Of a stretch of DNA of 64,000 bases, positions 14,721-41,700 are shown piece after piece. The DNA is taken from contig CAIIXF020000010.1 in the NCBI GenBank assembly GCA_903813345.2, forward strand, positions 36,695,425-36,759,424, given 5' to 3'. The position numbers and the translations under genes are program-made. The notes below the pieces were generated by a model that worked only from the letters and a program-made list of their open reading frames with translations, was not told the DNA's origin and searched no databases. The stretch comes from Owenia fusiformis. Lineage: Eukaryota; Annelida; Polychaeta; Sabellida; Oweniidae. Numbering within the stretch: position 1 is the first letter of the stretch; every line of letters starts with the position of its first letter.

Positions 14721-17700
14721 CTGAAATAAAATTAAAAATTTTATTTATACGGTGACCAAAAATTTCACAATCTAAATTTTGAATGAGCTAACGGAATCGT
14801 TCTAACGTCTAGAAATGATTCAATTTGATGAGAATGCAATTCAAAAATATATTTGCCATTTTCTTAATGGAATCCCTTAGGAAAAAACCCATGTTTTGAC
14901 ATGCGTGGAGAAAAAGGGTACATGTTCTCACTTAGTTTTACACACTTTTACCTCAATCCTCCCATGTGTGGCATGGAAAATTAGGTAAAAACAGGAGATG
15001 GCATTCTTGTTTTTACACACTTTTACCTCAGGGAAAAATGTGGGTGACTGTGGAAAAATGTGGGGAAATGAAGTAACTCTCATCTTATTTTTACTTAACT
15101 TCCCCACATTTTTCACACTGTGGAGGAATGTGGGAAAGGGTAGTTACATGGTTTTACATGCATTGTAGCACATCTTAGAGAAAATAGAGGGACTTAAATA
15201 TGCTCTAATATTTACAGTTGTTTTATTTACATATGGTATAATTCTCAATAAGCCTTATATAATAATAATCTTTCAGAGCTCATCGAACATTAGCTGGTAA
15301 CATTATTAATTAATGACTATAATATGTGCATGTTTATAGTTTGCATCAAATACTTTATTTTATTAACATTCTTCATTTAACATTTAAAATACAAAAATTG
15401 ATAAATGTTTTTCATTCATATACTACTATCTGTGGCCTCCCTTGGCAAAAGCTGGGTATATAAGGCTGGGGAGGCATCAAAAGTTCAATGTCTGTTTAAA
15501 ACTTACTAATTTAGTTTTACCTTAATTATGAAATTTCAAAAACATTGATTTTGTTGGATGGAAAACTTTTCAGTTATGACCCCCCCCCCCACCCCCAAAC
15601 TTAATAAGTTAAGTTTCTAAACAGACATCGATATTTTGATGCCTCCTTAAGGCTTTAATTCTTACATGTACAAAAGTATATAATATGCATTTGGATATTC
15701 TTGCAGGATGTGGTTATTGAAATCAATCATATTTTAATATTTGAGAACTGCAAATGAGATAATTTCTCAAAGGTTTGAACAATATATGTAATGAGATACT
15801 TCAGGACGTTTGACAGCTGGAATAGCAGACATCAATAGGCGTACTCCAGAACAATTGGATTTGGCTTGAGATGTACCAAAAATAAGACATTGCAACATGT
15901 ATCCTGTGAGATGTCTTGTGACTACACATATCTCAGCTGATTGACAGTGAGTATTTATTCCAGAGAATATTAGAATATTTTAATCAGGATCAGATTTTGA
16001 CAAAATAAAAATACACAAGATTACTTTGTGATTCATTGATGGCAGTCAAACATCTTGTACGCTTCCTGTTTAAAATCAAAAATGCTTCAAGTTGGCGAAA
16101 ATGTAAGTTACCTTTAATCTCTAAAGCAATCAATTTTTAAAAATGATTGATTTCATAGGGATGATCTGGAAATATTTAAACTGCTTATTGTAGAAATTTT
16201 CAAATATAACACTCAAGATTCTACAGTTTCTGTGTTTTTTTTTTATTTTTCACCATTCCCTAGATTGATCTTAGTTAATCAGGCTATAGGCAAGATTAGT
16301 ACTGACTTTTTAATCAGAAAAGTTGAGTGTCTCTTTGTTCTCATAAAATTGAATGCAGGTATTTGGAGGTAAATTTGTCACTCAAGTTTTTGGCATAAAA
16401 GTTCCTTTTGCTAAATATATTTTCAAATTGATGTCTGTAAAAACTTGAAACTAAATGCTACGTTATTTCACTTACCTCTTATTGATTCTCCAAACATATT
16501 CTTTTAAAATCAAATTTGTTATTCTGTACCATTTTGACCAATAATTGTGTTGCTATTAGAAACAGTCGATTGTGATGTTGGGTCATGGACCAGTCCATTA
16601 AAATGGTAGTGGTGCCAGGTTGAAATTGATGTGATTTGTGGTAACGTGACTACATATTAATGGTCATGCAGAAAAGAAATGTGATGCAAAACTCATGTTT
16701 CATAATAATCTCAAAGCTCCAGTTACAAAACAAAACAAATATAAAATCGATTTGATTCTATGGCGATAACACCTCTGTGAAATTTAACATAATCTGGATT
16801 TTGTTTTTGAAGATTCCATGAAATTACAAGACAGGCTAAATTCCGTTTACAAATAGGATATCAGAGAATCAATAAATGATTGGTGAAATAAATTAGCATT
16901 TGCAGTTTCAAGTGTACATAGGACAATGTATAACTATGAAATGCTGACTGTAGCTTTTAATCACCAAAAGCTGAATGACAAGTTGAACTCCAAATTCATG
17001 AATAAACTATCAATTGGGCTAGCAAAGATAGTACTATTGTAAACAAGGACTAAGCTGATATGACTTGAGAGTAGTACTTTTAATTTCATATGCATATTAA
17101 GCATTCTTCTTTAGTTCAAAGCATCCTGTTTTCAGAAAAATTGATCTTTGCTTTTACCCTATTGACAGTGAAATTAACATTTTTGAAGAATAACATGTTT
17201 TCCTAATCATGTTCCACATGGTTTGGGATGTGAACTATTAAGGAGCTTTCATGGACTTGTAGTCTCACAACGTGTTCTGTAATTGTTCTCACTTCAATCA
17301 ATGTTTCAGTTTCATTCCTGAAAATACAGTATATGTGTTGCTGTTAAGACATAATTATTGTCATCTCAATTTAAATCAAATTAGTAATTTATGTTATCCT
17401 TATGACCCATACAAAACTGAATCGGTATAGCATGCTACATATGAATACTAATATAGCTTTCATTTTTGAGGAAAATTCCATTCAAATATTATTCAATTCA
17501 AACAGTGAAAATAATGTTTCTGATAATATTATTTCTTATCAAAATTGCCTCGTCAGTTGAAATTGGTCTTGCCTTTTTGTTGATCCTGACTACAGCTCAT
17601 GTTGATTACCATATTATTAAAGCTTTACTTTCATATCTCATACCTTTGACGCACTCTCTTAGTGTAATGAAGAGTGTTTTCTCTAAGTGCTGTTGATGTG

Positions 17701-20700
17701 GGGAAAGGGAATTTCATCGGCCACACATCAGTTTCCATCTCCAGGTTTTTAATCGATGCATAAGTTGTTCCGTCAATGTGTAGGAAATGCTGCACCTCTG
17801 CATATAACACTCTATAATATAAACAATCAATAGTCTTATAGGCAATGTCAAAGCACCAATATAAAAACATAAGGTTAGATCTATTTAATGTTTACAAGAC
17901 AAATTTACTGGCTATAATTGATAATCTCTGGATATAAGCTTGGTTTAAGTGGTACAATCAAGTTAGTATTTTATTTATTCATGCATTTATCATAGAAACC
18001 GAATCAAATATTTTCCCCAATGAATCATATTTTAATTATCACTTAATAACTGATGATCATATATTTACTGATGATCATATATTTACTGATGATCATATAT
18101 TTACTGATGATCATATATTTACTGATGATCATATATTTACTGATGATCATATATTTTGATATGTAGATATGCTTACTTACAAATTATTAATGCAGTAGGC
18201 AATGATTGAATCATTTCTCTTGGTATACTTTGGAGCATGGACACTTGTTATTGTTTGTCCCTTGTATATTATTTTGCTTGACCTCTGATGACCCGTCTCG
18301 GTGACAATGGGGTTTACCAAAAGGCAGTCATTGACATTGACAACATTTGTCCTGAAAACAATAATCAATAATTAGAGAATAATAACAATTATAAATTTTA
18401 TCTAGACTGATGCCTAATGGAAGTATTCAATTTGACGGATTCAGGACTGACGTTTAATTAACCTTTTGAATACCCAGAATGACGGATATATCTGTCACAA
18501 ATGAAATCCATTTGGAACCCAGAGCGACATATATATCTGTCACAGAATTTTTCACTAAAACTGCTCTAACTTTTGCAATTTTTATCCAATCTTCACAAAA
18601 CAGGTTTTAAAATGTTTTAAATTGACATTTTGAGAAATTTTGGGAAAATGAGGCCGATAAGTTAAATTCAGGAAATGCACTGCATGATTTGAATTCTATT
18701 AAATAGTTAAAAACACTCACAATTTTTTCTTCTTCAATATCTCTTGAACATCTGGGTTTGATACAAGAAGGGTCATTACTCTTAAGAGTTGAATCGACCT
18801 CAGATTGTTCAAGACCTGAAAAAATAAATTAGTATTGAAGATTATTGATAAGATTGAAATTGTGCAACACTAAACAAATAACATTTATGCAAAATGTTCC
18901 TCAGTTAGAGTACATTGTATTTTATGCTACGTGGACAATGCATGAATGACAAAATGTTGATTGACACTTTGTATGTGCAATACTTTATACATGTATTAAG
19001 TATATGAGTCTCTCATAAGCTGCACTGGCTGGGGCAGTGTTTTAAAAATGTTAATTAAGTATTATATATTAAATTCTTGCTGTGAGACGTAAATAAACTA
19101 TAAAATAAAATATCAATTGATCATATTCACATTGTAATTAGGATTTTTCTATTTTGATTAACACTGAACTGCCATTTCATATATTTAACTGAAGATCCAA
19201 CTCAAGTACCATCATCGCTATTAGATACAAATAAAAAAACAAACAATATTTAGTTACAGTTGATCAGTTTATTTAGAAAATACATTTTTATAGTACACTA
19301 TATTACATCATGTTAACATATTATCACATATTACATAACATCACTACTGAGAGGACAGGCACTTCTCTAAAATGTCTATCACTTGGATGATTGAAGGACG
19401 ATCTGCTGGTGACCTCTTGTGAAGGAGTGAAATTAGCCCAGACAAGCCTCTCACGGAAGTTCTCTGGCGAATGTCCTTAAATAATGTCCCAAGAGAGTAT
19501 AAGTCACTCTGGATTGAGGCTGCATACCCTTCCTGAATCTCAGGAGCAATCCAATCCCGTCCTGATGAAAGTCCATCCTTGAAGATAAGAGGTGCCGAAA
19601 GTGATGATGAGAGTCCAAAATCAATCAGTTTACCCTCTGTCTTGGTGACTAGACAGTAATTGTTCGTTTTGATATCATTGTGGAGCATTCCTCTAAAATG
19701 GATATGCATCAGTGTTGTAGTCAGGCAGAGGCACTGGGATATGTAGTCCTTGTTGTTGAGCTGGTAATAATCCTGGTGATCCAAAACACGTTCGAGGGTT
19801 GATCTCCTGCTTTTGTCCATGTGGACAAACTCTGTAACCAGTGTGTGAGAGTCGGGAATGGCGATCAGCTGCTGTACATGTTCTATCTCACTAAGATGGA
19901 TGAGGTTGATTGCTTCTCGTACAAGGTCTGTTGTTGATGCCATTCTCTTCACGGCAATCTCAGCTCCAGTCTGGTCACGCAATGCCTTTACGGACCCGAA
20001 AGCACCTTCTCCCAGAATGCCCAATGGTGTAGTGAATGCGGTTAATTCGACTTCACGGTATGGTAATAACGCTTCACGTGTTGGCAATTCCTGGAGATGT
20101 GATAAAGCTCTATATAAGCTGTTTTTCTCTTCACGCTCATTAGCTAGTGACGCCTCCAAGTCCCGAATCTTGTTATGAGCCCTTCGCAGCTCCCTCTGGT
20201 TGTTGGCAGCAGTTGCTGTTGCTTCTTGCAGAGCAGCCTCCAACTCTGCTATCTTGATGTCTTTGTTGGCGTCGTCCACATCCTCTATGATACGATTTAC
20301 GACATCATGAGGCGCGCTGAAATCAGTGTCATCAGATGTGAACAGCTCAGTTCTTGCAGTATCGTGCCAAACAATAGGCGTTGGTTGAGGGTGTACTGGG
20401 ATCTGGCTTTCGACATTCATAGTATACTCTTTCCAAGCCAGTTCCTTGTAGAAATATCTTCTCTGGCGTCCACGTCCTGCTCTTGTAATGGTAACTTTCC
20501 CGAACACCTGTCGCAGAAGGATACCAAATCTTGTCTTGGTAACTGGGCCGACTTCTTCTTGGCATCTCTTGAGGCAGCTATCAGAGAAGACTCTCTCAAT
20601 ATCAGGAACCTTGGTGTTGTCAGCTTGTAGAGTCTTCTGCATCCAGTTGGTTATTGTGTTTTCTGCTGTCATCTTGAGTGTTATGTAGTAGTTGCATTAA

Positions 20701-23700
20701 TAAATAATGAATTCCAAGAGAAATTTTCCTGCTTTTAAACCCAAAAATTGTTTGAAACTCAAAATGAAGCGTTCTGATTGGTCAATCTTAATCCTTTAAT
20801 TTCTTTAATCTGGCCTCAAAATATCACATATTATAAACAAAAGTGTCAGTGTCAGTGTCATCAAATAGTGATCATTTAATCCAGGTAATCAATCCTGACA
20901 TTGTTTAAAACATTAATCCTGCAATCTGATTGGTTATTGGAATTGAATGATCTGAAGATGAGTACTAAACAATTGCATCATATGATTCCTTGATCTTAAA
21001 ACAATAAGATAATCTCTCTCAGCCTGTCACCAGATGTATTTAAACAATTTGTCACTTTTTGGAATTATCTTTTATTAAAGTGATTACCCTTTTTGAAAAA
21101 TATTCTAAAGACTTGACCACTCAAATATCTTATTATTTATCACAATCCTACAGTACCATTAGTATTTCAATCACATTTTTGAAGGTGTGTCCAAAGACAA
21201 GAATTTTTTTTTACATGATTTTAACAGTATTTGGGAAATAAATAAAATAAAAAAAATGAAAATGCAATAATTGTTTGAAACTTGAAATGAAGCATTCTGA
21301 TTGGTCAATCTTAATTCTTTAATCTGGCCTCAAAATATCACATATTATAAACAAAAGTGTCAGTGTCATCAAATAGTGATCAGTTAATCCAGGTAATCAA
21401 TCCTGACATTGTTTAAAACATTAATCCTGCAATCTGATTGGTTATTGGAATTGAATGATCTGAAGATGAGTACTAAACAATTGCATCATATGATTCCTTG
21501 ATCTTAAAACAATAAGATAATCTCTCTCAGCCTGTCACCAAATGTATTTAAACAATTTGTCACTTTTTGGAATCAAGCTTTATCAAAGTGATTTCCTTTT
21601 TTGAAAAATAAACCAACCAAATATTTATAATTGATAAAATAGTACCATGTGTACTTATCAGACACATAAGGGTAATATGAAAATTGAATAATCGATCCAC
21701 TAAAACTAAAACTTATGAATATTCATTTAAAGGGAACTTTCTACTATATCTGCCATGCTATCTGACCTGAATTAGTCAACTGGTGGTGAAACGGGTAACT
21801 ATCTACTGGCATGTGGGTACTAACAATTGCTTGTGATTATTTGAATATTTACCTGAATTCCTTTATTCTGAGTCCCCTGGATTGTCCTGACTAGTGTACC
21901 AATATGTGACTCAGGGGCAAAGCATGATGTTGCCCAGATCGGACCAAATTTTTCTGCACACTGCACTAGGTGCAGCCCAGTGTTGTGGGAATTTATTGTC
22001 AGTGATGACTTTCCTACAAAATAGTACAATTGTCACAAAATGAATAGAAATGAAATAGAGCATGTTGGAAATTTGATATCATGCTGAAGATTTGAAAAGT
22101 ATGATATAATAGTAATGCCTGAAATCAATTGAACATTTTAATTGTAAGTTGTGTCAAATACTAGGTTGTTACGATCTTTGGAGGAGTAGCATTAGCATTG
22201 TTTGTCATTTGGCTGAGTGTGTTACAAAAACTACAAGCCTGCTTTATCTAAAAAGAGGTTTACCATAATGTGACTCTTGGAGATCATAGAAATTGTAAAG
22301 TAGTGCTGCTGCATGGCCCAGTTCAGTTGGTGATATTTTATCTTGGAGTAAAATCCTAACCCCAGCTGAGAGCATACAATAATGTGCTATGTAGTCATCA
22401 GGTAGGAGTCCAGTCAGTACCTCAGGCCCAAACATGATGAGAAATGCTCTATGTTCTGCAGCTGTAAAGCAAATTAAACATTACACGATGGTTAAAGCTG
22501 ATATGTCATTAAAGTGAACCTATAGTTGAACCCGTGGTTTGAAAATAAAATGTCATTGAAGTAAACCTATAGTTGAACCCATAGTTTGAAACTGATATCT
22601 CATTGAAGTGAACCTATAGTTGAACCCATGGTTTGAAGTGAATATGCCATTGAAGTAAACCTATAGTAGAACCCGTGGTTTGAAAATAAAATGTCATTGA
22701 AGTGAACCTATAGTTGAACCCATAGTTTGAAACTGATATCTCATTGAAGTGAACCTATAGTTGAACCCATGGTTTGAAGCTAACACATCATTGAAGTGAA
22801 CCTTTAGTTGAACCCGTGGTTTGAAGTTAATGTCATTGAAGTGAACCTATAGTTGAACCCATAGTTTGAAACTGATATGTCATTGAATGAACCTATAGTT
22901 GAACCCATGGTTTGAAGTGAATGTGCCATTGAAGTGAACCTATAGTTGAACCCGTAGTTTGAAACTGATATGTCATTGAAGTGAACCTATAGTTGAACCC
23001 GTGGTTTGAAGTGAATATGCCATTGAAGTGAACCTATAGTTGAACCCGTGGTTAGAAAATAAAATGTTTTTGAGGTGAAACTATAGTTGAACCCATAGTG
23101 TGAAGCTAACATATCATTGAAGTGAACCTATAGTTGAACCCATGGTTTGAAGTTGATGTCGTTGGGGTGAACCTATAGTTGAACCCGTGGTTGGACCAGT
23201 GAACCCGTAGTTGAACCCGTGGTTTGAAATTTACATGTGACTCAAGTGAACCCATAGTTCAACCCATACTTTGGAGCTTACATGTCTTTGAAGTGAACCT
23301 ATAGTTGAACCCATGGTTTGAAGTTTACATATGCATCCATTGAAGCTTTAGTGTAGCCCATATTTTGAGGCTTACATGTCATTAAAGTGAACCTTTAGTT
23401 GGACCAATATCACTCAATATCATTGAAAGTTTATAAGAAAGATTACATTGAAGCCTATATGTCAATGAAGTGAACCTATAGTTGGACCCTTGGTTTTAAG
23501 TTTGCATATGACTGTAACAATGTATGTAAATTATATCATTACCTTTCCAAGATTTATGATTGGTGACAGACCGTGGTGTCCTTGTGAAGTCTGATGTCAG
23601 TTGGACTTTGTTCAGCCTCTCATCAATTTTCTGAATTTCCCTTACTAGTGAGAAGGGCTCTTCTTTGTACTGTTTGTCAAAGAAATATTGCATCAGATTG

Positions 23701-26700
23701 CCATGAACTCCAAGGCACACACCATGTAGCCAATCAAGTGAGATGTCACAATACACTTGGCCCATGTTTAGAAAGTGGAGGCTCGAGAGGCGCTTCACTC
23801 CTTTTACCTAAGAAGACATTAATTCTTATGAATAACTATGATAATATTGTGCTTAAATGTCCCTTAAAGATTCTTGTACAAGAAGGATAAAATTGTTATT
23901 CTGATTCAATACTGAGAAAATTCAAAATGACCACCTTATGTTGGGTTTCACAATAATTTCCCAATATCTTCAAAGTATCGCTACTGTTAATACCATTTGT
24001 TTGTTTTTTATTTGTGCCACAGTTAATTCCAACTACCTTAAATTCGGAATTTGCTATAATTTATTTAGAGATATCTTCATAGTTGGTTTACATTTAGTTA
24101 TATTAGATCAAATATATTGTAGTTATTCATGTTAAAACACCTACTGCTTTGTTAGTTTCTTCTGCAGTTCTAGCTTGCTCCTTAATATTGTCTGGAGTTC
24201 GTAAGGGAGCAATGTCGTCAGGGGAAGGGCAGGAGTACACTTGCACACTTCCACGACCCTTCTTGATCCGTTCACCAGGGTCTTCACAAAATCCACAGCC
24301 AAATCTACCATTGTACTGCACTTGGTCGAGGACCATAGCTTGGGCAGGAAGGTCCAAAGTTCCAACAAGTAGCAGTATCCTGCAAGTCTGGTCCTGGTCA
24401 TTATCAATTGGAAAAATGGTGATTCCTTAAAAAAACAATCATTCCAAGATTTACATACAAAGAAGCATCCCTGGAAATTTCAAATCATCTGCGAAATGGT
24501 TTGCCTGAAAAGGTGTAGAGTTGTAGGTTCAATTCCAGTTTTTTGATAGTGAGTTGTTTACTAGGGATGCCATTCTAGATGAGAAGTGAATTCTATAAAT
24601 TTAACAAGATAACAGCAATGCCAATGCATAGCAAATTGAACAGCCATTTTTTTTAGAGTAGATTGCAAATATTGTATCGTTTTTCTGCCTAATATGGGAT
24701 TTCGCACTCATTTTCTGATCTCTTCGATGCATGGCTTTATTATACTCAAATCAAAGAAATTTAGAGTAGATCACAATTATGGTATTGTATTTCTTAGTTC
24801 ATTTTTAACCAAAGTTATGAGTATAACTGATTGGAATTTTGGTAATGGATATGTTGTTCATTGGGATTTGCTACTCTGTGGAGTTGCAGTTTTCTAGTAT
24901 ATCTTGTACCTAAAATACTATAAAACTGACACTAAAATGCTGCCCATTTTGAAACAAGTTTCCATTTTGAAAATTGGCTTGCATGCAGAACTTGTACTTC
25001 CATGAAGCATATACATACTTATAAAATATAAAGGTACCTGACGGTCCAACAGACGGTATTTGAATTATTGCTGTTCTCTATATCCCCACAAACTATGTTT
25101 GATGGGATAATGAGTTTATGTTTATTGCATCCAATGAACATACCATTTAGATATACTTCATTCAGTCTGTCAATGATCGGCTCCATGAATGTTATCATAG
25201 ATGGCTTTTTGGCCCCCTTCCATAAACCAATTACAATTCTGTAGTTTTGGTCAAATCTACAAAACAGAATTACAAAGCTATTAGTTTTATTTTAATTGAT
25301 GATGAAGCCTAATATAAACATTATACATGTACAGTGTATGTATGTATTTCTTTTCCATAACATCACCTAATGACCAGAATGCTATTGTCATGAGTATCAC
25401 TTTCTTGGCCTATCAGATATTGCAAACAATTATTTTGAATTATTTTGTAAAGTGGTGTCAATGTTACATGGCACTGCAGAGTTACATGCCTCACTTAACC
25501 CTTTCACGGCGATAGGCTCCATATGGAGCCCTATTATGTAATACCTTTCAGGATGATGGGCTCCTTTTTGTCACCATTATTTTTATTTTTATACATCAAT
25601 AAAATGATGATATCTCCAGTTCTGTTCAGTATTTTTACACCAAATTTTGACAAGTTGTTAAAATGTGATAATTCTTATTAAAAATTGTATTTAAGTGATA
25701 AAATGTAAAGTAAAGTTCCCAGGTAGAGATAATTTGCAGTTTTCCCCTTAAAAACACTCTTACTTATCCATCACCAGGCCAACCTTTTCCTCTTATATTC
25801 AGGTCATGAAAGGGTTAAAAGATCTTTATCTTTATTGAAGTTTATCACATTGATCAAATTTTAAAAAATTGAAAAATTATTCAATGAATTCATCTTTACC
25901 TCATAGATGGTGGTAATTCATTAATATACCCCGTCAGTGGCCAGATATCATATCTTGATGATTTGGAGCAGGCAGCACCATCAAAATGAATCATCAGTGA
26001 TAAATTGTATGGATTTGTAAGGAAGCCTCCTTCCTGCGTGTGCTTTTTATAGGCAGACCCATCCCAAATATCACAGATATTGTCCCCTGGACTTTCTCGA
26101 GTGAACCTTTTCTTGATTCCTTTACAGAACTTTGGATCTGAAAAACATCAAAATTACTACAGTAGTTGTTATTTTCAATATTGCAACTTGGGTATAAGGT
26201 CTCTGTACTAAATGTGTTTTAAAGTATCAAGGAAAAAGTCCAGTAAATAATGAAAAAATATTTTAAGTAACCTGTTCTTTATTTTGTTAAACTTTATTGA
26301 ACCCCGGGTGTCCTGTTACCTTTGAAAAATTCCTGAATTTGTCGCTCAACATCTAAACCGTGGAAGCTGGCATTTGGCAGTTTTGTTTTTGGATTTTTGT
26401 ACCGTGATGTATTACAATCAGGACATGTTATTGCAGCATCCTTATAGAGATATGAACAATTTTCGCAAATTTCAAAATTCAGAATGGATGATTCTTCAGT
26501 GTCACTTTGTTTGTATAGTTTATTAAAATAATACAAGCTTTTTAGATGAGGTGCATCACAATTGACTGGAAGATGCAGCTTCAATATGTTGATGATATTC
26601 TCAAGTGCTGCTTTTGATGTGTTGAAGGAGTGAAGGTGATTTACAAGAAGTACTAAACTTTCTAAATCAGACAATTGACTTCCTTCATATAGTGGAACAT

Positions 26701-29700
26701 GGTTAGATTGCATTTGAGACATATAATCCTGCACTTTGTCAATTTTGCGCTTTGCCATATTTGTATTAGGCAATGTATAGGGCAGATCTGGTAGTTCAAT
26801 TGACTTGAAGGTCTTTATGATGTCGATGATGTGACTTAGTTTATAATACAGGGATGAAAGGATCCTCAGATTCTAAAATGTAAAATCATTTCTATATTTT
26901 TGATCACATTGGTTATTAAAATGAAAACCAATCACCCCTTTAAAAAGTTAAGTAAGGCCTGGAGCCAATTAATGTAGATAATCTGTTCAAAAGTAAAATG
27001 AAATTTACTAATTGGCAGATATTGACTTAAATCATTACATTGCAATTTAAGTAATTAACTCCAGATTAATAATTGGTGCTTTACCATTACATATCAATAA
27101 TATGATTTAATTTGGCATATAAGTAATGGAAAAGTATAATACTGCAACAAATTATTTTATATCATTGGTTTTTTATCTGATTATACAAATGGATTTTTTT
27201 TATATCTAATGAGAAATCGGAGTAAGGAAAGAATAATGTGGGAAGATGTGGAAAATATGGGTGAAACTAAGAAAGTAGATAGGAAAATTTGGGGAAAGTG
27301 TGGAGAAATATGTCACCTTAAATAAACATTTACCTAGGAAAGTAAACAAATCTCAGTAGTTGTTTTGTTTATCATTTTGCCTTGAATTAGAGAAACCATT
27401 GTTTAAATTTATTAATTTTTATTTATTAATCTCATTGTTTTTTTTCATCTTATAAAACATGAATTTTCTTTGATATCTGATGAGAAACTAGGCTTAGCAA
27501 AGAATGTTGTGGAAAATATAAGTTGATAGCAAATTTGGGGAAATTGTGGAGAAATATCTCAGTTCAAATTATTTTATATCATTGGTTTTTTATCTGATTA
27601 TACAAATGGATTTTCTTTGATATCTAATGAGAAATTGGACTAAGGAAAGAATATTGTGGGAAGATGTGGAAAATATGGGTGAAACTAAGAAAGTAGATAG
27701 GAAAATTTGGGGAAAGTGTGGAGAAATATGTCACCTTAAATCAACATTTACCTAGAAATGTAAACAAATCTCAGTAGTTGTTTTGTTTATCATTTTGCTT
27801 TGAATTAGAGAAACCAATATGAACATGTAGAATTGAAGTTTAAAGAATACATATAGGATTTTATAATGAATTGTTATTGTTAAAGATTTAAAAAAGATTT
27901 TAATGTTCTATTTTAACAATTGATCATAAATGCATTGTATGTTTATTTATTTAAGTCTGGCTGTTTGATTGCTTTTGCAGAGTTCAAGTTGTGGAGATCA
28001 TAGAAAATTAGCATCATAAATGAGACTAACACTCCCCTTTCCTTTTCATTAATTAATTGGATTAAACATTTAGTGCCTATATATAGGGCTCTCCAGAGTA
28101 AAATTCAGTCTTAAATCAGATATCACAAGAGCTAGAACACTGATCATATCACAAGAAACAGAACACTGACCAAAAAGAAAGAATTTCAAAACATTTTGAC
28201 AGAATTAGAAATACTGTGTTCATAAAGAAGAAGATGACACTCAGACAACTCACAAAAGAAAAAGGTTTGAATATTATTGAAATAATTAAAATATAGGTTC
28301 ACTTCAATGACATATCGGTTTCAAACTATGGGTTCAACTATAGGTTCACTTCCAGTCAATGACATATCAGTTTCAAACTACGGGTTCAACTATAGGTTCA
28401 ACTATAGGTTCACTTCAATGACATATCAGTTTCAAACTACGGGTTCAACTATAGGTCCACTTCAAGTCAATGACATATCAGTTTCAAACTACGGGTTCAA
28501 CTATAGGTTCACTTCAATGACATATCAGTTTCAAACTACGGGTTCAACTATAGGTTCACTTCCAGTCAATGACATATCAGTTTCAAACTATGGGTTCAAC
28601 TATAGGTTTTTTTCAATAACATATCAGTTTCAAACTACGGGTTCAACTATAGGTTCACTTCAAGTCAATGACATATCAGTTTCAAACTACGGGTTCAACT
28701 ATAGGTTCACTTCCAGTCAATGACATATCAGTTTCAAACTGCGGGTTCAACTATAGGTTCACTTCAATGACATATCAGTTTCAAACTACGGGTTCAACTA
28801 TAGGTTCACTTCCAGTCAATGACATATCAGTTTCAAACTACGGGTTCAACTATAGGTTCACTTCCAGTCAATGACATATCAGTTTCAAACTACGGGTTCA
28901 ACTATAGGTTCACTTCAATGACATATCAGTTTCAAACTACGGGTTCAACTATAGGTCCACTTCAAGTCAATGACATATCAGTTTCAAACTACGGGTTCAA
29001 CTATAGGTTCACTTCAATGACATATCAGTTTCAAACTACGGGTTCAACTATAGGTTCACTTCCAGTCAATGACATATCAGTTTCAAACTATGGGTTCAAC
29101 TATAGGTTTTCTTCAATGACATATCAGTTTCAAACTACGGGTTCAACTATAGGTTCACTTCAAGTCAATGACATATCAGTTTCAAACTACGGGTTCAACT
29201 ATAGGTTCACTTCCAGTCAATGACATATCAGTTTCAAACTACGGGTTCAACTATAGGTTCACTTCAATGACATATCAGTTTCAAACTACGGGTTCAACTA
29301 TAGGTTCACTTCCAGTCAATGACATATCAGTTTCAAACTACGGGTTCAACTATAGGTTCACTTCCAGTCGATGACATATCAGTTTCAAACTACGGGTTCA
29401 ACTATAGGTTCACTTCAATGACAAATAAAGTTCAAACCTTGGATTCAATTATAGGTTCACTTTTGGGTTCAACCAGATTATTTTAATAACATGCAAATTT
29501 TATTTTTAACTTTAGGCCCTGACAAGTGGACTGTTATTTCCTTTGAGAGTGACAACAAGGGGCTAGTGATAAAATCCTCAAGACTGCGGCTTCTGGACAA
29601 CACAGATGAAATGATAGTGGGATGTGCAGTAAAGTGCAAAGCCTTTCCAAAGTACAAAGCAACAATTAAATGTATAACAGGTATATCAATATGAATTCCA

Positions 29701-32700
29701 GATTTTGTAATGAGTGCAGTGTGTGTATTACTTTCAAATAAATTCATTAGTTAACAACATAAATTACTTTTCTGAGATTTACATAATTTTATACGCTCAG
29801 TAGGAAAACTATGAATAAATATTTTATTTTATTCACAATGGTATGTAACATTATGTAATGTAGTTAATATGTAATTTACAGATGAGGAAGATGATGCCAA
29901 TACCTTGAGCTGCAATAATGCTATTAATATATAAGCATTCGGATTAGACAGATTTTAATGTGTGCTATAGTGACAAACTCTATTTACTTCATACAGGCAT
30001 TCAGCATCCCCGAGGAGCTAAGAAAAGAAGTACTGAGGAATATGCAGAATTGGCAACAACTAGTACTTCAGAAATAGAAAATGAAGATATCAGTGAAATT
30101 CAACGTAAGACGCTCTTAGTGTACTCTCTCCTATTTACAGCTAACCAAAATTATCTAAAAGGTCTTAGTTTAGCTTGAATTATTCTGAAAAACTGATTTT
30201 TAAACCTGCATATGAATCATATGTATGTATGTACATTTCATACATAAATAAGAATAATTTTGACACTCCTATTGAATCAGTGAAAGGTATGGAGCAAATA
30301 GAGCAAAGTGTATATATTGTATTTTTTCTTCTTAGCTGTAAAGCGTCGAAAGACAAGAAAACGGAAGAATGCATCCAAAATTAAGAAGCCCTTGAAGGAT
30401 GACAAAGTTACCAAAGTTAAACTGTCTCAGCTGAACAGTAAGTGGAACTAACATAAATCTGCAATTCATCTCAAACAATAATGTCAATAATTCTATATAA
30501 CAAAATAGCTATAAGATGAATGAAGTTGACAAGGCAAATGGATACAATATCTCATTCATTAATATATAATAAAAAAATATGTTTTGGTTATGTTTGTTGC
30601 TGTCAACATGGCACATGAAGATTTCCTATTACAGAATAGATTATCCTTGTAATTGTGATTGTAAAATGAGATGGTATTGTTAAAGTAAATATAAACTTTG
30701 CATTCATGAATTTTAATTTTTATTCTAGATATAGAACTAGTGCACAAACGCTCAAAAGAAAGAAGTGAAAAGTTTGCCACACTTTTTGCCACAAATTTGA
30801 ATGCCAAAGTTCAAGAAGTCTCGACACCTATTTCAAGACAATCAAGCCCAGTGCCTTCTTCACCAGTTCGAATTCCAAGTTCAAATGCCAAAGTTCAAGA
30901 AGTTTCGACACCTATTTCAAGACAACCGAGTCCAGTGCCTTCTTCGCCAGTTCGAAGTCCAAGTTCAAATGCCAAAGTTCAAGAAGTCTCGACACCTATT
31001 TCAAGACAACCGAGTCCAGTGCCTTCTTCGCCAGTTCGAATTCAAAGTTCAAATGCCAAAGTTCAAGAAGTCTCGACACCTATTTCAAGACAATCAAGCC
31101 CAACGCTTTCTTCGCCAGTTGCCATTCCAAATTCAAATGCCAAAGTTCAAGAAGTCTCGACACCTATTTCAAGACAATCAAGCCCAGTGTTTTCTTCACC
31201 AGTTGCCATTCGTAAGGCCCGCATGAGCACCAGCACCCACACCGTTGTAGAAGTAACTCAGATAACAGAGTGCAATAATCCTACCAATAACACAAGTCTG
31301 AATGTCAGAAATGATAAAGAGAATCAGTTGTCTGGATTGAACATATCTGGAAATTTAATAGAACTCATAGATGACATGGCAACAAACATGGAAACAAACC
31401 CGTCCTCAGGATATCAAGGTATGACAAACCCATCCTCAGGTTATCAAGGTATGACAAACACATCCTCAGGATATCAAGGTATGACAAACACATCCTCAGG
31501 ATATCAAGGTATGACAAACCCGTCCTCAGGATATCAAGGTATGACAAACCCGTCCTCAGGATATCAAGGTATGACAAACCCGTCCTCAGGATATCAAGGT
31601 ATGACAAACCCGTCCTCAGGATATCAAGGTATGACAAACCCATCCTCAGGATATCAAGGTATGACAAACCCGTCCTCAGGAGATCAAGGTATGACAAACC
31701 CGTCCTCAGGATATCAAGGTATGACAACCCAGTCCTCAGGATATCAAGGTATGACAAACCCGTCCTCAGGATATCAAAGTATGACAAACCCGTCCTCAGG
31801 ATATCAAAGTATGACAAACCCATCCTCAGGATATCAAAGTATGACAAACCCATCCTCAGGATATCAAGGTATGACAAACCCGTCCTCAGGATATCAAGGT
31901 ATGACAAACCCGTCCTCAGGATATCAATGTATGACAAACCCGTCCTCAGGATATCAAGGTATGGCGACAAACCCGTCCTCAGGATATCAGGGTATGGCGA
32001 CAAACCCGTCCTTGGGAAATCAGGGTATGGCGACAAACTTCTACTCTGGCTACCAAGGAATGGCGACTAATTACTCATCCCTCATCCCTCACAACAGCAT
32101 CACTGCAATGGCACCTTGGGCTGAGACAATGAAATCCCAATTATTTGTAAGTATACCAGCAGTTAAAATCTAAATTCTGCTCATTATTAGTTATATATGA
32201 AGCATTGAAAAGATTTTAATTATGTTTTGATGAAATAGTTTTTATGGAGTTCAACAATTTGCAAATATATCTCTAAAATTTCTTGTTATTGTCTAAGAAA
32301 CATTTTGATGCCTTTGCATATTATCTAAATGTGTAGCTGAAATGAGCAGTTTAATGCAAGTTTTTCACTCTATTTTTCAGAGAGATGTATGCAGCCATGT
32401 GTCCAATCAATTAAACATACTTCATGGAAGAATTGACTACAATACGTTTAAAAACCAGCAAAATGCCCAAGAAATCAATCTCATCCAGACCAGTTTTAAC
32501 AAAGGTAATATATCAAGAGCAAGTAAAAAATAATTTCAAATTCAAGTTTTTTTAATGGAATAGAATTGTATAATTTACTGAATTTTGTTTGACTATTGCA
32601 AACAATTTAGTCTCCGGCAAGCAAAGTTGGTTGTCAACTTCGAAATAATCAAAAGAGAAACCTGTACTTCTGACATCTCTCTAAATCCAAGGACTTCAAT

Positions 32701-35700
32701 TGTGAATATTTTTTTTCCCAATTACATACTTGCCCAATAACTACCTTCTTGATAAAACATTGACATATCACATGCTGGTCTGAACACATTTTTAAATTTC
32801 CAGTGGTGTTAAGATTACACCAACTATATTTTTCATGACTTTATCATGATAGTTTATAATTTATATATAATATATCATTTCAATTCTAAATTGTAGGCTT
32901 TGAGCAGTTCAATACCAATATGAACAGCATGAAGGACCGGATTGTGAATGAGATCACAGGAATAGTAAAACCTCCTACAGCCAGGAAGCTAGATCTGGAA
33001 TCATTGGGGAGCTCCATTGGATATAGTGAAACCCATAGGCAATACAGTGTCTCGCCACCCCTGTCACACTTGTCAGACGAAAGTGATTGTGAACTTTCTA
33101 TGGATATACAAGAATCTCAGTCACCTGAATCCCCAAGTTGTAAAACACCATCAACCGTTACTTCTCCTGTCTTCAATATACCATCTGCAAGTTCCAATAC
33201 TGAGATCCGACAAACACAATTACCAATTCAAGAATCTTCCTCTCTACCAGGCCAGACGTCTGATTCAGGTAATGTCATCTTTCATTTCTTAGACAACAGT
33301 TAGTAAACTTAACCCTGCATTTGTTCTTAACTAAAAGAATGGAAGCTATATAACTAATCAGAACCCAATAACTATGTCGTTCAACTCAAATTTCATTGCA
33401 GGTTGCTCTGTAAACAAAGAAACGCCAGAAGATCTGAGACCAGTTACTGTTGTTGAAAAAAGAAAAGCCAATATAACAGTGAGTATCAAGTTTCTAAGTT
33501 GAATGAAGGATTCAAATGGGTATTATGCATACTATGGGTTTAATTAAATAACATATTGACTATGGGTTCAACTATAGGTTCAATTACAGTCACATGTAAA
33601 CATCAAACCACAGTTTCAACTACGGGTTCAACTATAGCTTCACTTCAATGTCATGTAAACTTCAAACTACAGGTTTAACCACGGGTTCAACTATATTTTC
33701 ACTTCAATGATATGTCAGCTTCAAACCACGGGTTCAACTATAGGTTCATTTCAATGATATGTAAACTTCAAACCATGGGCTCAACTATAGGTTCATTTCA
33801 ATGACATTAACTTCAAACGACGGGTCCAACTATAGGTTCACTTCAATGACATATTAACTTCAAACCATGGATTCAACTATAGGTTCACTTCAATGACATA
33901 TTAATGACAATGTTCACTTCAATGACATTTCAGTTTAAAACCACGGGTTCAACTATAGGTTCACTTCAAAGGCATATCAGTTTCAAACCACGGGTGCAAC
34001 TATAGGTTCACTTTAATGACATTTCAGTTTCAAACCACGGGTTCAACTATAGGTTCACTTAACTGACATATTAATGACAATGTTCACTTCATTGACATTT
34101 CAGTTTAAAACCACAGGTTCAACTATAGGTTCACTTCAAAGACATATCAGTTTCAAACCACGGGTGCAACTATAGGTTCACTTTAATGACATTTCAGTTT
34201 CAAACCACGGGTTCAACTATAGGTTCACTTAACTGACATATTAATGACCATGTTCACTTCAATGACATTTCAGTTTAAAACCACGGGTTCAACTATAGGT
34301 TCACTTCAAAGACATATCAGTTTCAAACCACGGGTGCAACTATAGGTTCACTTCAATGACATTTTAATTTCAAACCACGGGTTCAACTATAGGTTCACTT
34401 CAATGACATATTAATTTCAAACCACAGGTGCAACTATAGGTTCACTTTCATGACATATCAGTTTCAAACCACGGGTTCAACTATAGGTTCACTTCAATGA
34501 CATATTAATTTCAAACCACAGGTGCAACTATAGGTTCATTTTCATGACATATCAGTTTCAAACCATGGGTTCAACTATAGGTTCACTTCAATGACATTAA
34601 TTTCAAACCACGGGTTCAACTATAGGTTCACTTCAAAGACATATCAGTTTCAAACCATGGGTGCAACTATAGGTTCACTTCAATGACATTTTATTTTCAA
34701 ACCATGGGTTCTACTATAGGTTTACTTCAATGGCATATTCACTTCAAACCATGGGTTCAACTATAGGTTCAATTCAATGATATGTTAGCTTCAAACTATG
34801 GGTTCAACTATAGGTTTACTTCAATGACATTTTATTTTCAAACCACGGGTTCACCTATAGGTTCACTTCAATGACATATTAATTTCAAACCACAGGTGCA
34901 ACTATAGGTTCACTTTCATGGCATATCAGTTTCAAACCACAGGTTCAACTATAGGTTCACTTCAATGTATAAGTTCAATGGGAAAATATGCAAACTTCGG
35001 GTTCAATTATAGCTTTAAATGAATAATATGTAGGCTTCAAACCACAGGTTCACCCATATGTATTTATAATTGAAACCATGACCTGAGGTATTCTGCAATT
35101 TATAAAGTTCTGATTCAGTTAATAAAAATCTTTCCTTTTACATAGGAAATCTCTGAATCGACAATGAAAGTAGTCGCAGATATAGTGAAGAAGAGAGGGC
35201 CAGGAAAAGCCATTTGCTACCTGCTAGATAAGATGTTTAGTGAAAGGGAACTCTTGAACACATTTGCCAGACCATCTGGGAACAACCTGACTTTAGATGA
35301 CCTTGGTGTTAGAATGCCGCTAATTAGAGGTATGTTCCTACTTTATCCAAAGTTTTATTTTTTAGATATTAAAGGATTCTGCAATAAATGTCTAGTTCAC
35401 CATTTCAATATTATCGTGTAGTAACACTGTAGGAAAATGGAGACAGTTTTGGTACCCCTTGATTATTTTACATAAGAAGGTGTTTCATTGTTCTGGCATA
35501 TTAACCAATTATAAAAAAGAATGTAATTCTAAAACAACTGCTCCACGTTAAATGATATGTCTCTAAAATGATTAATGTTTTGTAAAATCTTTTGTCATTG
35601 CAGAATTCTTGCAGACAAGACATGGGATAGATATAAATAAGATTGAGAAAACAACAAACCAAAAACGCAGAGATTTGAAAAGGAAAGCAAAGAAATAGAC

Positions 35701-38700
35701 TTTTGTTTATGGATTGTCCTGGGCTTAACAATCAATGTTACTAATGATTACAATTTATTAGTCTATGTCTACAATGCCATTAAAATAGCTTGTACATTTA
35801 AACATATATCAAAATTGATTTAATCAAATCCCATATTAGTTGTACAAAGTTGCATATTTTATGAATCTGTGTGTCAAATTATCTATTTTGTTTTCTTTAC
35901 AAAAGCAAAGTGCTGTCTCCTTTATTTTTATTTCAAAAAGTCAAATCATTTGTTCACAATATTATGTAAATACTTCCATTGGAAAACTATCAGATTGGTC
36001 CTTTTAATGACCTTGTATAGCACTGTAAGCATCAATAAAGGTATTTATTAACATCTGTATCATCCATCAATGAAACATTAGTTGGTTTAATTTTGAATAA
36101 TGATGAAATGTTTCTCAACTTGTAGGAAAATGATGAACTCAGATAAATACCTTATTTTGATTTCACAATTTTTGCAATTGCCAATGTATTATTATACTAC
36201 AGATTATAGATAGTCTAATAATGTTATTATCCCAGCCTTGCCTAATATAAGTGAGCGTTTTTTTTTTGTTTTTTTTGTTTTAATTCCATTAACAATAATT
36301 CAAGTAAAAATTCAAAATTAGATGAGTAAACAATACCAAATTGGGCAAGGCTACTATTATCCCTAGCTTAAGAATAAATTTGTCAACTTACCAAACATAC
36401 CCAGTTGTTCAATCCTGCTAGACCTTCGTATTTCAGAATGGACAGCTACAGTAACCTATAACTGTCTTAATAAAAAACTATAAACATTTGTAAATACTGA
36501 TTAGTTTGTACATAGAAAAAATATATGTATTGTATTATATATCAATGTAAATATAAATAAAGTTAAAACATTTGATACAAATGTGTACATGTTTATTTTA
36601 TATGAAGTCAAATCAATAGTATTGATGTTCAAGCTGGGTTCCACTAGGCTTATTGAGAATTATACCCTATGTAAATATTAAATAAAACAACTGTAAATAT
36701 TAGAGCATATTTAAGTCCCTCTATTTTCTCTAAGATGTACTACAATGCATGTAAAACCATGTAACTACCCTTTCCCACATTCCTCCACAGTGTGGAAAAT
36801 GTGGGGAAGTTAAGTAAAAATAAGATGAGAGTTACTTCATTTCCCCACATTTTTCCACAGTCACCCACATTTTTCCCTGAGGTAAAAGTGTGTAAAAACA
36901 AGAATGCCATCTCCTGTTTTTACCTAATTTTCCATGCCACACATGGGAGGATTGAGGTAAAAGTGTGTAAAACTAAGTGAGAACATGTACCCTTTTTCTC
37001 CACGCATGTCAAAACATGGGTTTTTTCCTAAGGGATGCATCAATTTCTCGACTTTGTACTACATTGCCGTATCAATTGCATACAGGTCCATATTATTGTA
37101 AATGATGGCTCGCCACATCTAGATACAGACCAAATAAATAATTATTGCATTCATACGTTTACTTATACCTGGGTCACATTTGCTCCGATCCATCGGCCGG
37201 CGCCCGGCCGATTGAGTGTTTTGCTCAATATTGTATTCAATTTTAACCAAATAATCAATTGGCCGGGCGCCGTAGTGAAAATCGGAGCAAATGTTACCAA
37301 GGCATTAGTGTAAGTTTCTAAATGGAGATATCCTGTGAGTGTTTCAGAATTTACAAATCGCCTCTAACTGCAAAGTTCGCCGTCTTATTATTAACATATT
37401 TGGATTCAGATATTACTCTGATTCACAGTTATTTTATTTATATAATATCCATGACTTTTTCAACTTTACTAACAAGTGTGGATCAAATTGATGTAATGTT
37501 GAAATTCTTTTAAATCTTGATCTATTCGTTCAACATCCATACAATTTTGAATTTCTTCAAAACCTTGATATATTCACAATACGTACTTTTACAGGGTCAA
37601 CGATTGTATGCCATTAGAGTTTTCATGAATCATGAAATTAAGTGACCAGTCCACATTTTTTACCATTGAAACAAAACCAAAACATATAAAGAACAAAGAG
37701 CTGACACCTATTCATCCATTTTTACTTAGCTAGATAGCAACTCCAATGTTGGATATTATCTTTGAGGATGACGTTGGTAGAATAACCACATAGTGATTCA
37801 GGACAAGTACATGTATCAGTGGTGTTAAAGGTGAGAACATCAAAAAGGTTTGACTTTACTAAAAGCTTTGCATAAGAGAGAACACGTATATGGAAGCCGA
37901 AATGTTGTTTTGCAAGGCATTAGAGTTCAAGGAAAATGAAGCAGTTTGTCCTTATTTATAGATAAAAAAATGTTGAGTTTTAGCACCAAACGAATCAATG
38001 GTCCAGGTCTCGTGTAGGTATCTGGTAGGATCAACATATTTGACGCACTGGGTCTAAAAATAATAAGCAGCGCTAATGTTGTTAGATTTCTTCTTTTGTG
38101 AACTAAATGCAATTAGATCAAAGCAAAGTAAAGAAGAAAAAATGGCCGTGCGATGGAACAATATGATGCTGTTAAAGAGTCAGTTGTTCGAGAAAATTCA
38201 ATTGTTGTATCTCTGCGGAATCCCAAGGGCTCACTTGGATTTATTTCCATACAGAATTCAGCTTTCAAAGCAAATATTATGCTTAACTTTGATGCCAAGT
38301 TAATACACAGAATTTTCGATGCTAGGGAACGAGGAATCCAGCCAATGAAATGAAAGTGCTAGATATGTTACCAAAGTGACAATATGGATTAAAATTGGCT
38401 GGTACTGTACACCTGACTATGGTATTTCGAAGATGAAGTTGGCAGAACACAGTGAACTGGTGAACCAGGTCAATTATCAGTGGAGTAGAAACGTGAAAGG
38501 TGAAAGGTACGACTTCACTAAAAGCATTTCATTGGGTAGAAAAGTTAAACGCGTCGGCTACATGGTCATGGATGGCCATATTGAGACCCCGTATGAGGTA
38601 GAGTTCTAAACCAATGACAAAAGCTATAACAAAAACTCGAATATCCCTAATATTTAAATCAAAAAAAAGAAATATACAGAATTTGACCATTATCTTAAAA

Positions 38701-41700
38701 GAAACAAATTGATATTAAATTTATAATTAAGAATTTCTCCATCTAAAATGTCACTCGACTTTTTGGCAATTAAAAGTCCCTGCCTGCATTTAGTAGTCAT
38801 GTGCATAATTTTGTAACCATATCCTAATTATTTCACAAACCCTTTGTTGATTCTGCCATAGTTTCCAATTTGTAAACAGCATTTAGCCTTTTTAATTGGG
38901 AACTTTTTTTTCGAAATTTCCAAAATGTCTGCCATGTGATTCCAGAATTAACATCAGTGTGACGTGACATCACAGTTGCTCGTTCCTAGGTAACAACAAG
39001 ATCACAATTGCTCGTTTCTAGATAGCAACAAGATTTTTGATAAAATGGCACAGAATTACCCTGATTAACACCCTTAAAATCCGATTTTCAAAGAATATAT
39101 TTGGAGAAACAATAAAAGGTAAGTGGAATAAATTAGAAGATGGTTTCAAGTTACCACAGAAGTCAATTTGAAACTCAAGAATGCTTTCTTTGACTCATAA
39201 TCACAAAAAGTCGAGTGACATTTTAGATGGAGAATTTCTTAGTTAAACGAATTTTATTGTAAGAAATCCGATGACGTTTATCCTTTGAAAGGTTCATGGA
39301 TGTTATTTGTAATTGAAAATATTAAATGAAAAACGGAGAAATGTTACAATATTATTGTTCTATCCCAGCTTCTACTTACTTATTTTATCTGCAAATCCAC
39401 TGCCGCAAATGTCACAACTCTTCGGACATTGTTCTCTTATCGGTATTGGATTACAATAACCATCTTTGAATGCAGTCATAGGGCATCGTTCACTCTGGTC
39501 CTCACACTCTAAAACCAAAAGATATGTCAAAGATGGGGCAAAAAGGAGACCTGTTCGATGATATCAGGATAAAATACAAAGTAACACCTATTATTCCATA
39601 ACACCTTTTATTCAAGAAAAGTAAGTAGTCTAAAGCTGCAACCCACTAACTCACCTGTCTCTCCTGTGTCTTCACAAACTCCACAACTTTTCTCACACCT
39701 TTTGCTTATAAAGGGAATATCACATCTCAGATTTGTAGTTGTACTACACCAACGACCTGCTTCGTCCCTGCAAACTTGACGGTACGGGTCGATCGGACCC
39801 AGTAGACCAGCTCGCTTGTTGGGAGTACCTGTGACAAAAAATAATATTACATAAAACTGAATTTAGAACCATTTTGTGCACGAAAAGATAATATTAATGG
39901 AGTGTATTGTCTATACAATATAACTTAACCAATGTTTATTCCATCCAATATTAATAACACAGGGGCTTCGTATGAGGCAATCAATCAAGACGTCAGTTTT
40001 GAGTGTTGTATTCGGCACTTTTATTTACGTTATAATTAACATGGTACGTTTTGCAACTATACAATAATATGGTTAAAGGAAAGTTTGAAGATGAACCCTT
40101 AAATTATCCGATTGTTAAGTAAAACATTTTCCAATGATAACAAATATATAGTTAATCTTAAGGAAAATATCCATTGCATTTTTACTGAAATGATCAGTTA
40201 TATTCCGTAGTAATGTCAACAAATCCAGTGCCTTGGAATGATCATAAGGAAGTGGTGTCCATGCCAGTTATACCAATCATGTTTTTGTTCTGTTCTTTAG
40301 AGATTACACACCCATAGGTGTCATGTAAAATTATACTCTAAAACAGGGGAATTTGAACAATGAGATTGCCCAGTGTGAATGATGATAATGTATTTCGTAG
40401 ATACGACATATGTAGAACATGACGTTACTGAATGACTACACGGTAACATCCTCTGTACGCAGGGCTCCAAAATCCAGAATACCTTCTTTCTTTTTACCGA
40501 AGATAGAGGGATTCTGGACACCGGCTTAGGAGAATACATTGTATTAAATTAGCAAAATTAGCTATCATATAGGGTAATTTAAATTATGACACCGATTAAA
40601 ATGATTGATGTTCTTTTAAAAGCATGTTTTATTCAAACTTGGAGTAATATAGTTTACCCACCATAAGGATCGCAAGCGTTGCATGTCTTCCTACAAGCCG
40701 CCTTTACGGCAGATCTGCTACAATCCATTTCACCCAACCTCTTATATAGAGGGCATTCGACAAATTGGTCCTCACAGACTGAAGTAAATTAAACACATGT
40801 CGATTGTTAGGCATATGAAGTATGACATATGATGTAATGAATAGTGTTTGTGAGCGAAACGATATGCATAACTTGACACACTTACAAACTGGTCCCCGTA
40901 GACTGAAGTGAATTAAACATTAGGCATGGCCTATGAAATATGAAGTATGACATAGATGTAATGAATATTGTTTGTGAGGGAAACAATATGCATATCTTGA
41001 CACACTTACAAACTGGTCCCCGTAGACTGAAGTTACTTAAACATCAGGCATGGCCTATGGCATATGAAGTATGACATATGATGTAATGAATATTGTTTGT
41101 GAGGGAAACGATATGCATATCTTGACACACTTACAAACTGGTCCCCGTAGACTGAAGTGAATTAAACATTAGGCATGGCCTATGGCATATGAAGTATGAC
41201 ATATGATGTAATGAATATTGTTTGTGAGGGAAACGATATGCGTATATCTTGACACACTTACGAACTGGTCCCCACAGACTGAAGTGAATTAAACATTAGG
41301 CATGGCCTATGGCATATGAAGTATGACATATGATGTAATGAATATTGTTTGTGAGGGAAACGATATGCGTATATCTTGACACACTTACGAACTGGTCCCC
41401 GCAGACTGAAGTGAATTAAACATTAGGCATGGCCTATGGCATATGAAGTATGACATATGATGTCATGAATATTGTTTGTGAGGGAAACGATATGCGTATA
41501 TGTTGACACACTTACAAACTGGTCCCCGTAGACTGAAGTGAATTAAACATTAGGCATGGCCTATGGCATATGAAGTATGACATATGATGTAATGAATATT
41601 GTTTGTGAGGGAAACGATATGCGTATATCTTGACACACTTACAAACTGGTCCCCGTAGACTGAAGTGAATTAAACATTAGGCATGGCCTATGGCATATGA

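Follow-up and report, generated by a model that had tools for sequence, protein, structure and literature searches.

A transposase, with at most one DNA-binding partner, is usually considered all that a DNA transposon needs. Plant En/Spm (CACTA) elements encode the TNPD transposase and the DNA-binding protein TNPA, with TNPA arising by alternative splicing of a single gene. Among animal elements, SmTRC1 and its TRC relatives have CCC at the tips of their terminal inverted repeats (TIRs), 2-bp direct repeats (in 7 of 14 SmTRC1 copies), several spliced transcripts and an internal tandem-repeat region, according to the available part of their description (PMC1636069). Fungal DNA transposons, including EnSpm and Plavaka, carry a captured TET/JBP dioxygenase that is thought to help them evade silencing (PMC12730594, available part). 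Here we describe a 22-kb element of the annelid Owenia fusiformis, which lies in a stretch of 64 kb (the window; C10:36695425-36759424 of the 498-Mb assembly; positions given without a contig are those of the window). The element is bounded by TIRs and holds a transposase gene, a kinase gene and a probable BEN gene. We are fairly confident that it is an autonomous, recently mobile transposon of the TRC branch of CACTA, with a BEN partner and with a kinase that would tune or protect transposition. TRC-type animal CACTA elements and accessory enzymes in DNA transposons are both known.

The element shares with En/Spm a transposase, a second DNA-binding protein and repeated motifs near the ends, whereas its second protein comes from a separate, divergent BEN-like gene and the kinase gene is added as a third. 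It resembles SmTRC1 and TRC in its Transposase_21 domain, CCC tips, 2-bp repeats, spliced gene and internal tandem repeats (PMC1636069, available part). In contrast, the TIRs in that source are 54, 27 and 10 bp long, compared with 0.38 kb here, two other TRC elements span 5.2 and 9.2 kb, compared with 22 kb, and the available part of the TRC description mentions neither a BEN nor a kinase gene. As with the fungal TET/JBP transposons, an accessory enzyme appears in several transposon lineages; there the enzyme is a dioxygenase and the hosts are fungi, whereas here it is a kinase in an animal (PMC12730594, available part). Among the open-licence papers listed, with Repbase outside the scope, we found none that reported an animal CACTA element containing a kinase or BEN gene. 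Literature on the BEN domain together with CACTA, transposon or transposase yielded only bracovirus Ben genes, in the available part of a review of lateral transfer in Lepidoptera, and the available part of the Hydra genome paper held nothing relevant to elements with kinase or BEN genes.

A first-pass annotation, made from the sequence of the window, had placed a 22-kb TIR transposon at 14872..37036. The inverted arms (14872-15229 and 36679-37036) are 358 nt long and 99% complementary; with a small indel allowed, the similarity extends over ~390 nt at 97.4%. The transposon is real and no product of chance, as the whole 22 kb recurs elsewhere. Its inverted ends stand, but one AT on each side proved to be target duplication: the element proper occupies 14874-37034 (22,161 nt), with CCCTTAGG at both ends and AT immediately outside on the left (14872..14873) and on the right (37035..37036). 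Since AT is self-complementary, the apparent inverted repeat is longer by AT on each side. Ends at 14872/37036 were therefore rejected and shifted 2 bp inwards to CCC after comparison with other copies; the TIR matches of the second copy described below likewise begin at query base 3, not base 1. The left TIR (14874..15255, plus strand; first letters CCCTTAGGAAAAAACC) was delimited by inverted-repeat comparison and a genome TIR search, and the right TIR (36646..37034, minus strand) by inverted-repeat comparison.

The search for further copies bounded by the same TIR, as the first-pass annotation had proposed, returned 40 matches from 42 candidates, two of which are the window element's own ends; 29 of the 40 were read at least in part. 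A second full copy was found at C10:36800355-36822514 (22,160 nt), 90 kb away on the same contig, and the sole difference between the two copies is one T in a homopolymer (a 1-base indel). The flanks of the second copy (1.0 kb on the left, 1.8 kb on the right) gave no blastn match to the window. Near-identity within unrelated flanks indicates that all three genes moved together recently and supports the view that the element is a recently mobile DNA transposon, in line with the earlier suggestion that it could be recently active. The first-pass annotation had also named in advance what would speak for a chance assembly, namely TIRs that occur elsewhere but never with these genes. The second copy holds all three genes together, which rules out that unrelated genes came to lie between repeats by chance. 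Further, when the flanks of the window element were joined and used as a DNA query, an element-free related site was found 28.8 kb to the right (C10:36761306-36761450; 87% identical). This match spans the join (query 50-189), and the remaining left flank lies ~0.9 kb further left.

Insertion ends were compared to define the target duplication, as had also been proposed. A 2-bp direct repeat was present in 8 of the 11 two-ended copies (AT, AT, TA, AG, AA, TT, AT and TG), and all 11 had CCCTTAGG tips at both ends; the tip was altered in a single-ended older copy (C3:10.41 Mb). Three observations count against the reading of an autonomous, recently mobile element: the second copy has no clean 2-bp repeat (TTA/TTA), the repeat is absent in two copies of the related group described below (r_C3 and r_C12_13.08), and no gene match was obtained in 9 of the 11 copies read at both ends.

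The transposase gene (17203..26872, minus strand), predicted from open reading and splice signals, comprises exons 26320-26872, 25900-26137, 25144-25256, 24145-24425, 23543-23807, 22264-22461, 21853-22013, 18721-18815, 18181-18351, 17644-17811 and 17203-17317, and is open over 785 aa. The exons of this gene and of the BEN gene are predictions, set by eye from splice signals. The gene reads through its splices as first described, with 11 exons rather than ten. GT/AG is present at every internal junction and the stop ends at 17203; the earliest ATG of the first exon is at 26758, and no upstream exon was identified on the 5' side. The protein matches Transposase_21 (PF02992) in Pfam with an E of 9e-12 (45.1 bits, cut-off 28.6). 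A protein database search, with the best 7,999 candidates scored, gave one Tnp2 relative (22% identical, fungal-like by eye). Plant-type CACTA tips were not found, the tips being CCCTTAGG. Because Transposase_21 is above its cut-off, and the ends carry CCC and 2-bp duplications as in animal TRC, we assign the element to the CACTA superfamily, animal TRC type. The earlier description as CACTA-like accordingly holds.

The intron between transposase exons 7 and 8 (18816-21852) contains an intronless kinase gene of 442 aa in one open frame (19347..20672, minus strand). Just past its stop, within the transposase intron, is an A(A/T)TAAA polyadenylation-type signal (19268..19273, minus strand), and upstream of the kinase lies a duplicated segment (20742..21610; copies 20742-21102 and 21265-21610, 92% identical). 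From N- to C-terminus, the protein has an RFX-type DNA-binding domain, a central part in which a long helix is predicted, and a protein kinase domain. It is thus like RFX transcription factors in its N-terminal winged-helix domain and unlike them in that this domain is joined to a protein kinase. Pfam reported Pkinase with an E of 1e-20 and RFX_DNA_binding with an E of 5.4e-6 for the whole protein (27.4 bits, cut-off 27) and 2.2e-7 for the N-terminal piece (31.8 bits, same cut-off), so that an intact kinase with a DNA-binding domain, as first annotated, is upheld. The domain assignment is weakened by the narrow excess over the cut-off in the whole protein and by the kinase relatives on C1, C10 and C67 (see below), in which Pfam did not call RFX at an E of 0.01. 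The best match of the RFX-type piece in the Protein Data Bank (PDB) was hRFX1, with a weak E of 0.07. An AlphaFold model of the kinase alone, in which the long helix is seen, was poor (mean predicted local distance difference test, pLDDT, 43). The glycine loop, AxK lysine, HND-K-N, DFG, APE, D and R are invariant among three aligned kinases, the catalytic loop reading HND where HRD is usual. The set of catalytic motifs of a protein kinase is complete. Searches of the protein database with the kinase listed 27 proteins, which were general kinases and the window's own protein (best 7,999 candidates scored), and searches with its N-terminus gave nothing beyond the window's own protein (1,945 candidates).

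Searching the assembly with the kinase protein gave 48 matches, two of which are the full copies. A frameshifted kinase at C3:8.26 Mb, 70% identical over residues 224-442, precedes transposase exons 8-11 (64-85%) in the same orientation; between the two lies a frame that, as judged by eye, resembles reverse transcriptase. C78 has fragments of both genes, again on one strand, with transposase residues 352-469 first and kinase residues 200-272 (60%) after them. Only the exons after the kinase are seen on C3 and only those before it on C78, and the position in the intron is therefore supported from one side by each. Comparison of the kinase domain between the window and C3 gave a pN of 0.19, a pS of 0.76 and a pN/pS of 0.25 (bootstrap 0.19-0.33; 218 codons), silent sites being saturated. 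For kinase residues 80-223, dN was 0.29 and dS 1.18, and for four transposase pieces dN/dS was 0.19 (157 codons). The ratios of kinase and transposase are similar, which suggests that both have been under like purifying selection since the copies parted. Further, the C3 copy is broken, so that part of its changes are probably neutral and the estimate of purifying selection is conservative. The kinase thus looks like a selected component of the transposon lineage and not a fresh capture.

A more distant pair was found at C10:31.24 Mb, where 5 kb separate an intact kinase of 464 aa (28% identity in the alignment) and a Transposase_21 domain (E 3.6e-12 for the open frame, above the cut-off). The transposase there is 23% identical, a very different Tnp2, and the two genes are convergent; no flanking inverted repeat was found within 23 kb. 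If the 48 kinase and 14 Transposase_21 matches were spread evenly over 498 Mb, ~0.02 pairs at most 6 kb apart would be expected by chance; this is a rough guide by hand arithmetic, as both classes are clustered and the case was chosen only once it had been seen. To the right of this kinase is a satellite of ~200 bp units that extends over more than 6 kb (from C10:31247.4 kb onwards).

It is conceivable, though rather unlikely, that the element picked up the kinase gene from its host by accident and that the gene travels as a passenger with no role in transposition. The gene is intronless among genes of 10 or 11 exons, as a retrocopy would be, and a degraded copy of the element on C5 lacks the segment that contains it (19008..21257). 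The junction on C5 shows a short microhomology and is also compatible with a short duplication (TGA/ATGA). Because the more diverged copies on C3 and C78 have the kinase beside the same transposase, its absence from C5 looks like a loss, and the possibility of a recent insertion that was never in C5 was set aside. The genome also contains a wider family of kinases, many of them with no adjoining transposase match. Clusters of relatives, many broken, occupy C3:0.1-1.6 Mb and C4:27.95-28.4 Mb, with the nearest transposase more than ~59 kb away among the matches listed (57 of 134 candidates were scored in the transposase genome search). At C1:60.13 Mb, the 9.8 kb to the left and 8.9 kb to the right of an intact 449-aa kinase of similar architecture contain neither Tnp2 (best E 4) nor BEN nor CCCTTAGG. 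Conversely, no kinase match was found near nine Tnp2 matches with a 608-aa frame, nor near Tnp2 at C4:5.89/C12:9.37, C2:11.0, C6:6.1/6.2 and C3:34.55 Mb; the diverged Tnp2 element at the last site has no kinase in the 5 kb past exon 7 and no BEN in the 8.7 kb before the first match. These absences, together with that on C5, weigh against a kinase that belongs to the element. Given the relatives without transposase neighbours, the kinase family extends beyond the element; its other members may belong to a host family tapped by elements or may be relics of elements.

A passenger would be expected to decay at the neutral rate, whereas the kinase shows purifying selection between copies that differ at most silent sites and share the same transposase context. 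Further, the association recurs as fragments on C78 and beside a distant Tnp2 at C10:31.24 Mb. Selection acting on copies that have diverged within one transposase context speaks for a kinase that is important to the element. More tentatively, RFX-kinases could be a standing accessory of this animal CACTA branch, gained early, kept by selection, present in at least two very different Tnp2 lineages of this genome and acting at the DNA of the element by phosphorylating proteins of transposition or of host silencing; we consider this broader proposal possible but do not lean towards it. Apart from these comparisons, C67:25566-26708 and C489:30967-32109 each contain a kinase relative interrupted by a single in-frame TGA, with equal scores; the two are perhaps haplotypes of one locus.

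The second gene (28234..35698, plus strand) diverges from the transposase and encodes 891 aa in 10 exons that are open through all splices (28234-28264, 29516-29680, 29997-30104, 30336-30437, 30729-32146, 32381-32504, 32897-33268, 33402-33478, 35146-35329 and 35604-35698). Exon 5 contains a 30-nt coding repeat with units such as NPSSGYQGMT (31394..32062, plus strand). The ten exons first annotated are retained, and the assignment to BEN, although probable, is weaker than had been stated: the C-terminal piece matches nearly the whole profile (1-74 of 76) with an E of 0.03-0.04 and 14.6-14.9 bits, below the Pfam curated cut-off of 23.2, which counts against it. We regard it as unlikely, though far from negligible, that the protein only resembles BEN and is instead a DNA-binding or structural protein specific to this family. 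Such a reading would fit E-values of 0.03-0.06 below the curated cut-off. It would also fit the Pfam result for the whole 891-aa protein, in which BEN was not reported and the only family listed was the Tc3 helix-turn-helix model HTH_Tnp_Tc3_1 (E 1.4e-4, 22.1 bits, cut-off 21.1), and a PDB search with the C-terminal piece at an E of up to 10, in which the hits were two chains of unrelated proteins (best E 0.1). The HTH_Tnp_Tc3_1 match was rejected as a repeat artefact, being composed of short matches in the repeat region, none of which passes singly, and exceeding the cut-off by 1 bit. On the other hand, BEN is the sole Pfam family for the C-terminal piece at an E of up to 10. It is also the sole family, at an E of up to 1, for a relative at C2:22.12 Mb that is 61% and 43% identical over two pieces (E 0.058), and the match covers nearly the full profile both times. 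A BEN protein is thus still the probable identity of the second gene product.

The intergenic region that separates the transposase gene from the divergent BEN gene (26873..28233; 1.36 kb) contains nine copies of TGTGGRRA by motif count. Of the 29 occurrences in the 64-kb window, 18 lie in the TIRs (4 and 5) and in this region. First-order simulations gave a mean of 0.23 against 9 observed in the intergenic region and of 0.12 against 4 in the left TIR; the motif was picked after looking, and an internal duplication supplies part of the intergenic count. The intergenic density of TIR 8-mers was above all 113 of 113 background windows, and that of 9-mers above 112. For TIR words of 10, 11 and 12 bases, this density was reached by 11, 32 and 113 of the 113 windows, which speaks against a shared sequence of greater length. 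The TIRs and the intergenic region have short motifs in common, not long stretches.

We propose that the transposase, as expected of the Transposase_21 family, would cut at the CCCTTAGG ends and link these to target DNA with a stagger of 2 bp. The plant CACTA elements suggest, by analogy, a role for the BEN protein as a sequence-specific DNA-binding partner, with the TGTGGRRA repeats common to both TIRs and the shared promoter region as its candidate sites. Since these candidate sites are in both places, the BEN protein could pair the ends and regulate both genes. The RFX-type domain may bring the kinase to the element's DNA, where the kinase could phosphorylate the transposase, the BEN protein, or a host chromatin or repair protein; such phosphorylation would tune or protect transposition. 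If this is correct, a DNA-targeted kinase under selection in a recently mobile transposon of an animal would imply that elements of this kind can bring along a signalling enzyme of their own, and RFX-kinase elements would be to animals what the TET/JBP transposons are to fungi, with a kinase as the accessory enzyme. The open genes and the two near-identical copies make a role of the kinase directly testable. Further, a CACTA element of an animal that is well preserved and seems to be autonomous, together with non-autonomous derivatives in the same genome, would allow the superfamily to be studied outside plants.

It is very improbable that the two 22-kb copies are one locus doubled by the assembler or by segmental duplication, as their spacing of 90 kb on one contig and single differing homopolymer base might suggest, because similarity stops at the element ends with the 1.0 and 1.8 kb of flank of the second copy unmatched in the window, other family members show the same ends in other flanks, and the element-free related flank 28.8 kb away matches at 87% across the joined insertion point.

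The family extends beyond the two full copies. The pieces of the C5 copy are mostly 91-98% identical to the window element, and the TIR matches read include one-ended copies (four on C8, one at C3:10.41 Mb and one at C2:20.32 Mb). Fold-back derivatives of 4.6-4.7 kb at C1:2862856-2867440 and C2:10896065-10900801 have the right-hand 1.2 kb in both orientations around the 27164-28238 intergenic region and an array. Both keep these same two parts of the element, the right-hand 1.2 kb and 27164-28238, and we count this in favour of the proposed model. A related group has TIRs of 73-76% identity and lengths of 3.0-12.7 kb (7 copies read), with 48-61% of the sequence read, including 500 nt of flank on each side, made up of an array of a 47-nt unit. 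Neither the C1 and C2 derivatives nor the 7 related-group copies matched the three element proteins at an E of 1e-3. We class the related-group copies, from their composition, as non-autonomous elements built from an array.

The same unit forms three arrays in the full element: in a transposase intron (22490..23500, minus strand), where the 47-nt unit holds TTCAACTATAGGTTCA; in BEN intron 1 (28286..29462, plus strand), with 47/52-nt units of the same type as those with TTCAACTATAGGTTCA; and in BEN intron 8 (33531..35061, plus strand), with 47-nt units. Because it fills three introns of the full element and the arrays of the related group, the 47-nt unit serves as a mark of the family.

Some further matches were noted. 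A pair of TIRs at C12:15991382-16019207 is 27.8 kb apart, which exceeds the length of the full element. At C5:21418335-21420458, a transposase fragment (78%) lies 2 kb from a TIR fragment (89%), and the pair is probably a relic of another copy. The nine Transposase_21 matches with a 608-aa open frame have equal scores and probably represent another, intron-poor Tnp2 family (C1:24242559, C1:26136072, C6:14011940, C6:16672042, C6:16870334, C7:33124872, C9:391472, C9:16113973 and C9:20344596), which may also have been recently active. Outside the element, the window contains long tandem repeats at 40760-42078 and 61695-62972 and, as judged by eye, reverse-transcriptase-like frames of LINE type at 10692-12661 and 53489-53857.

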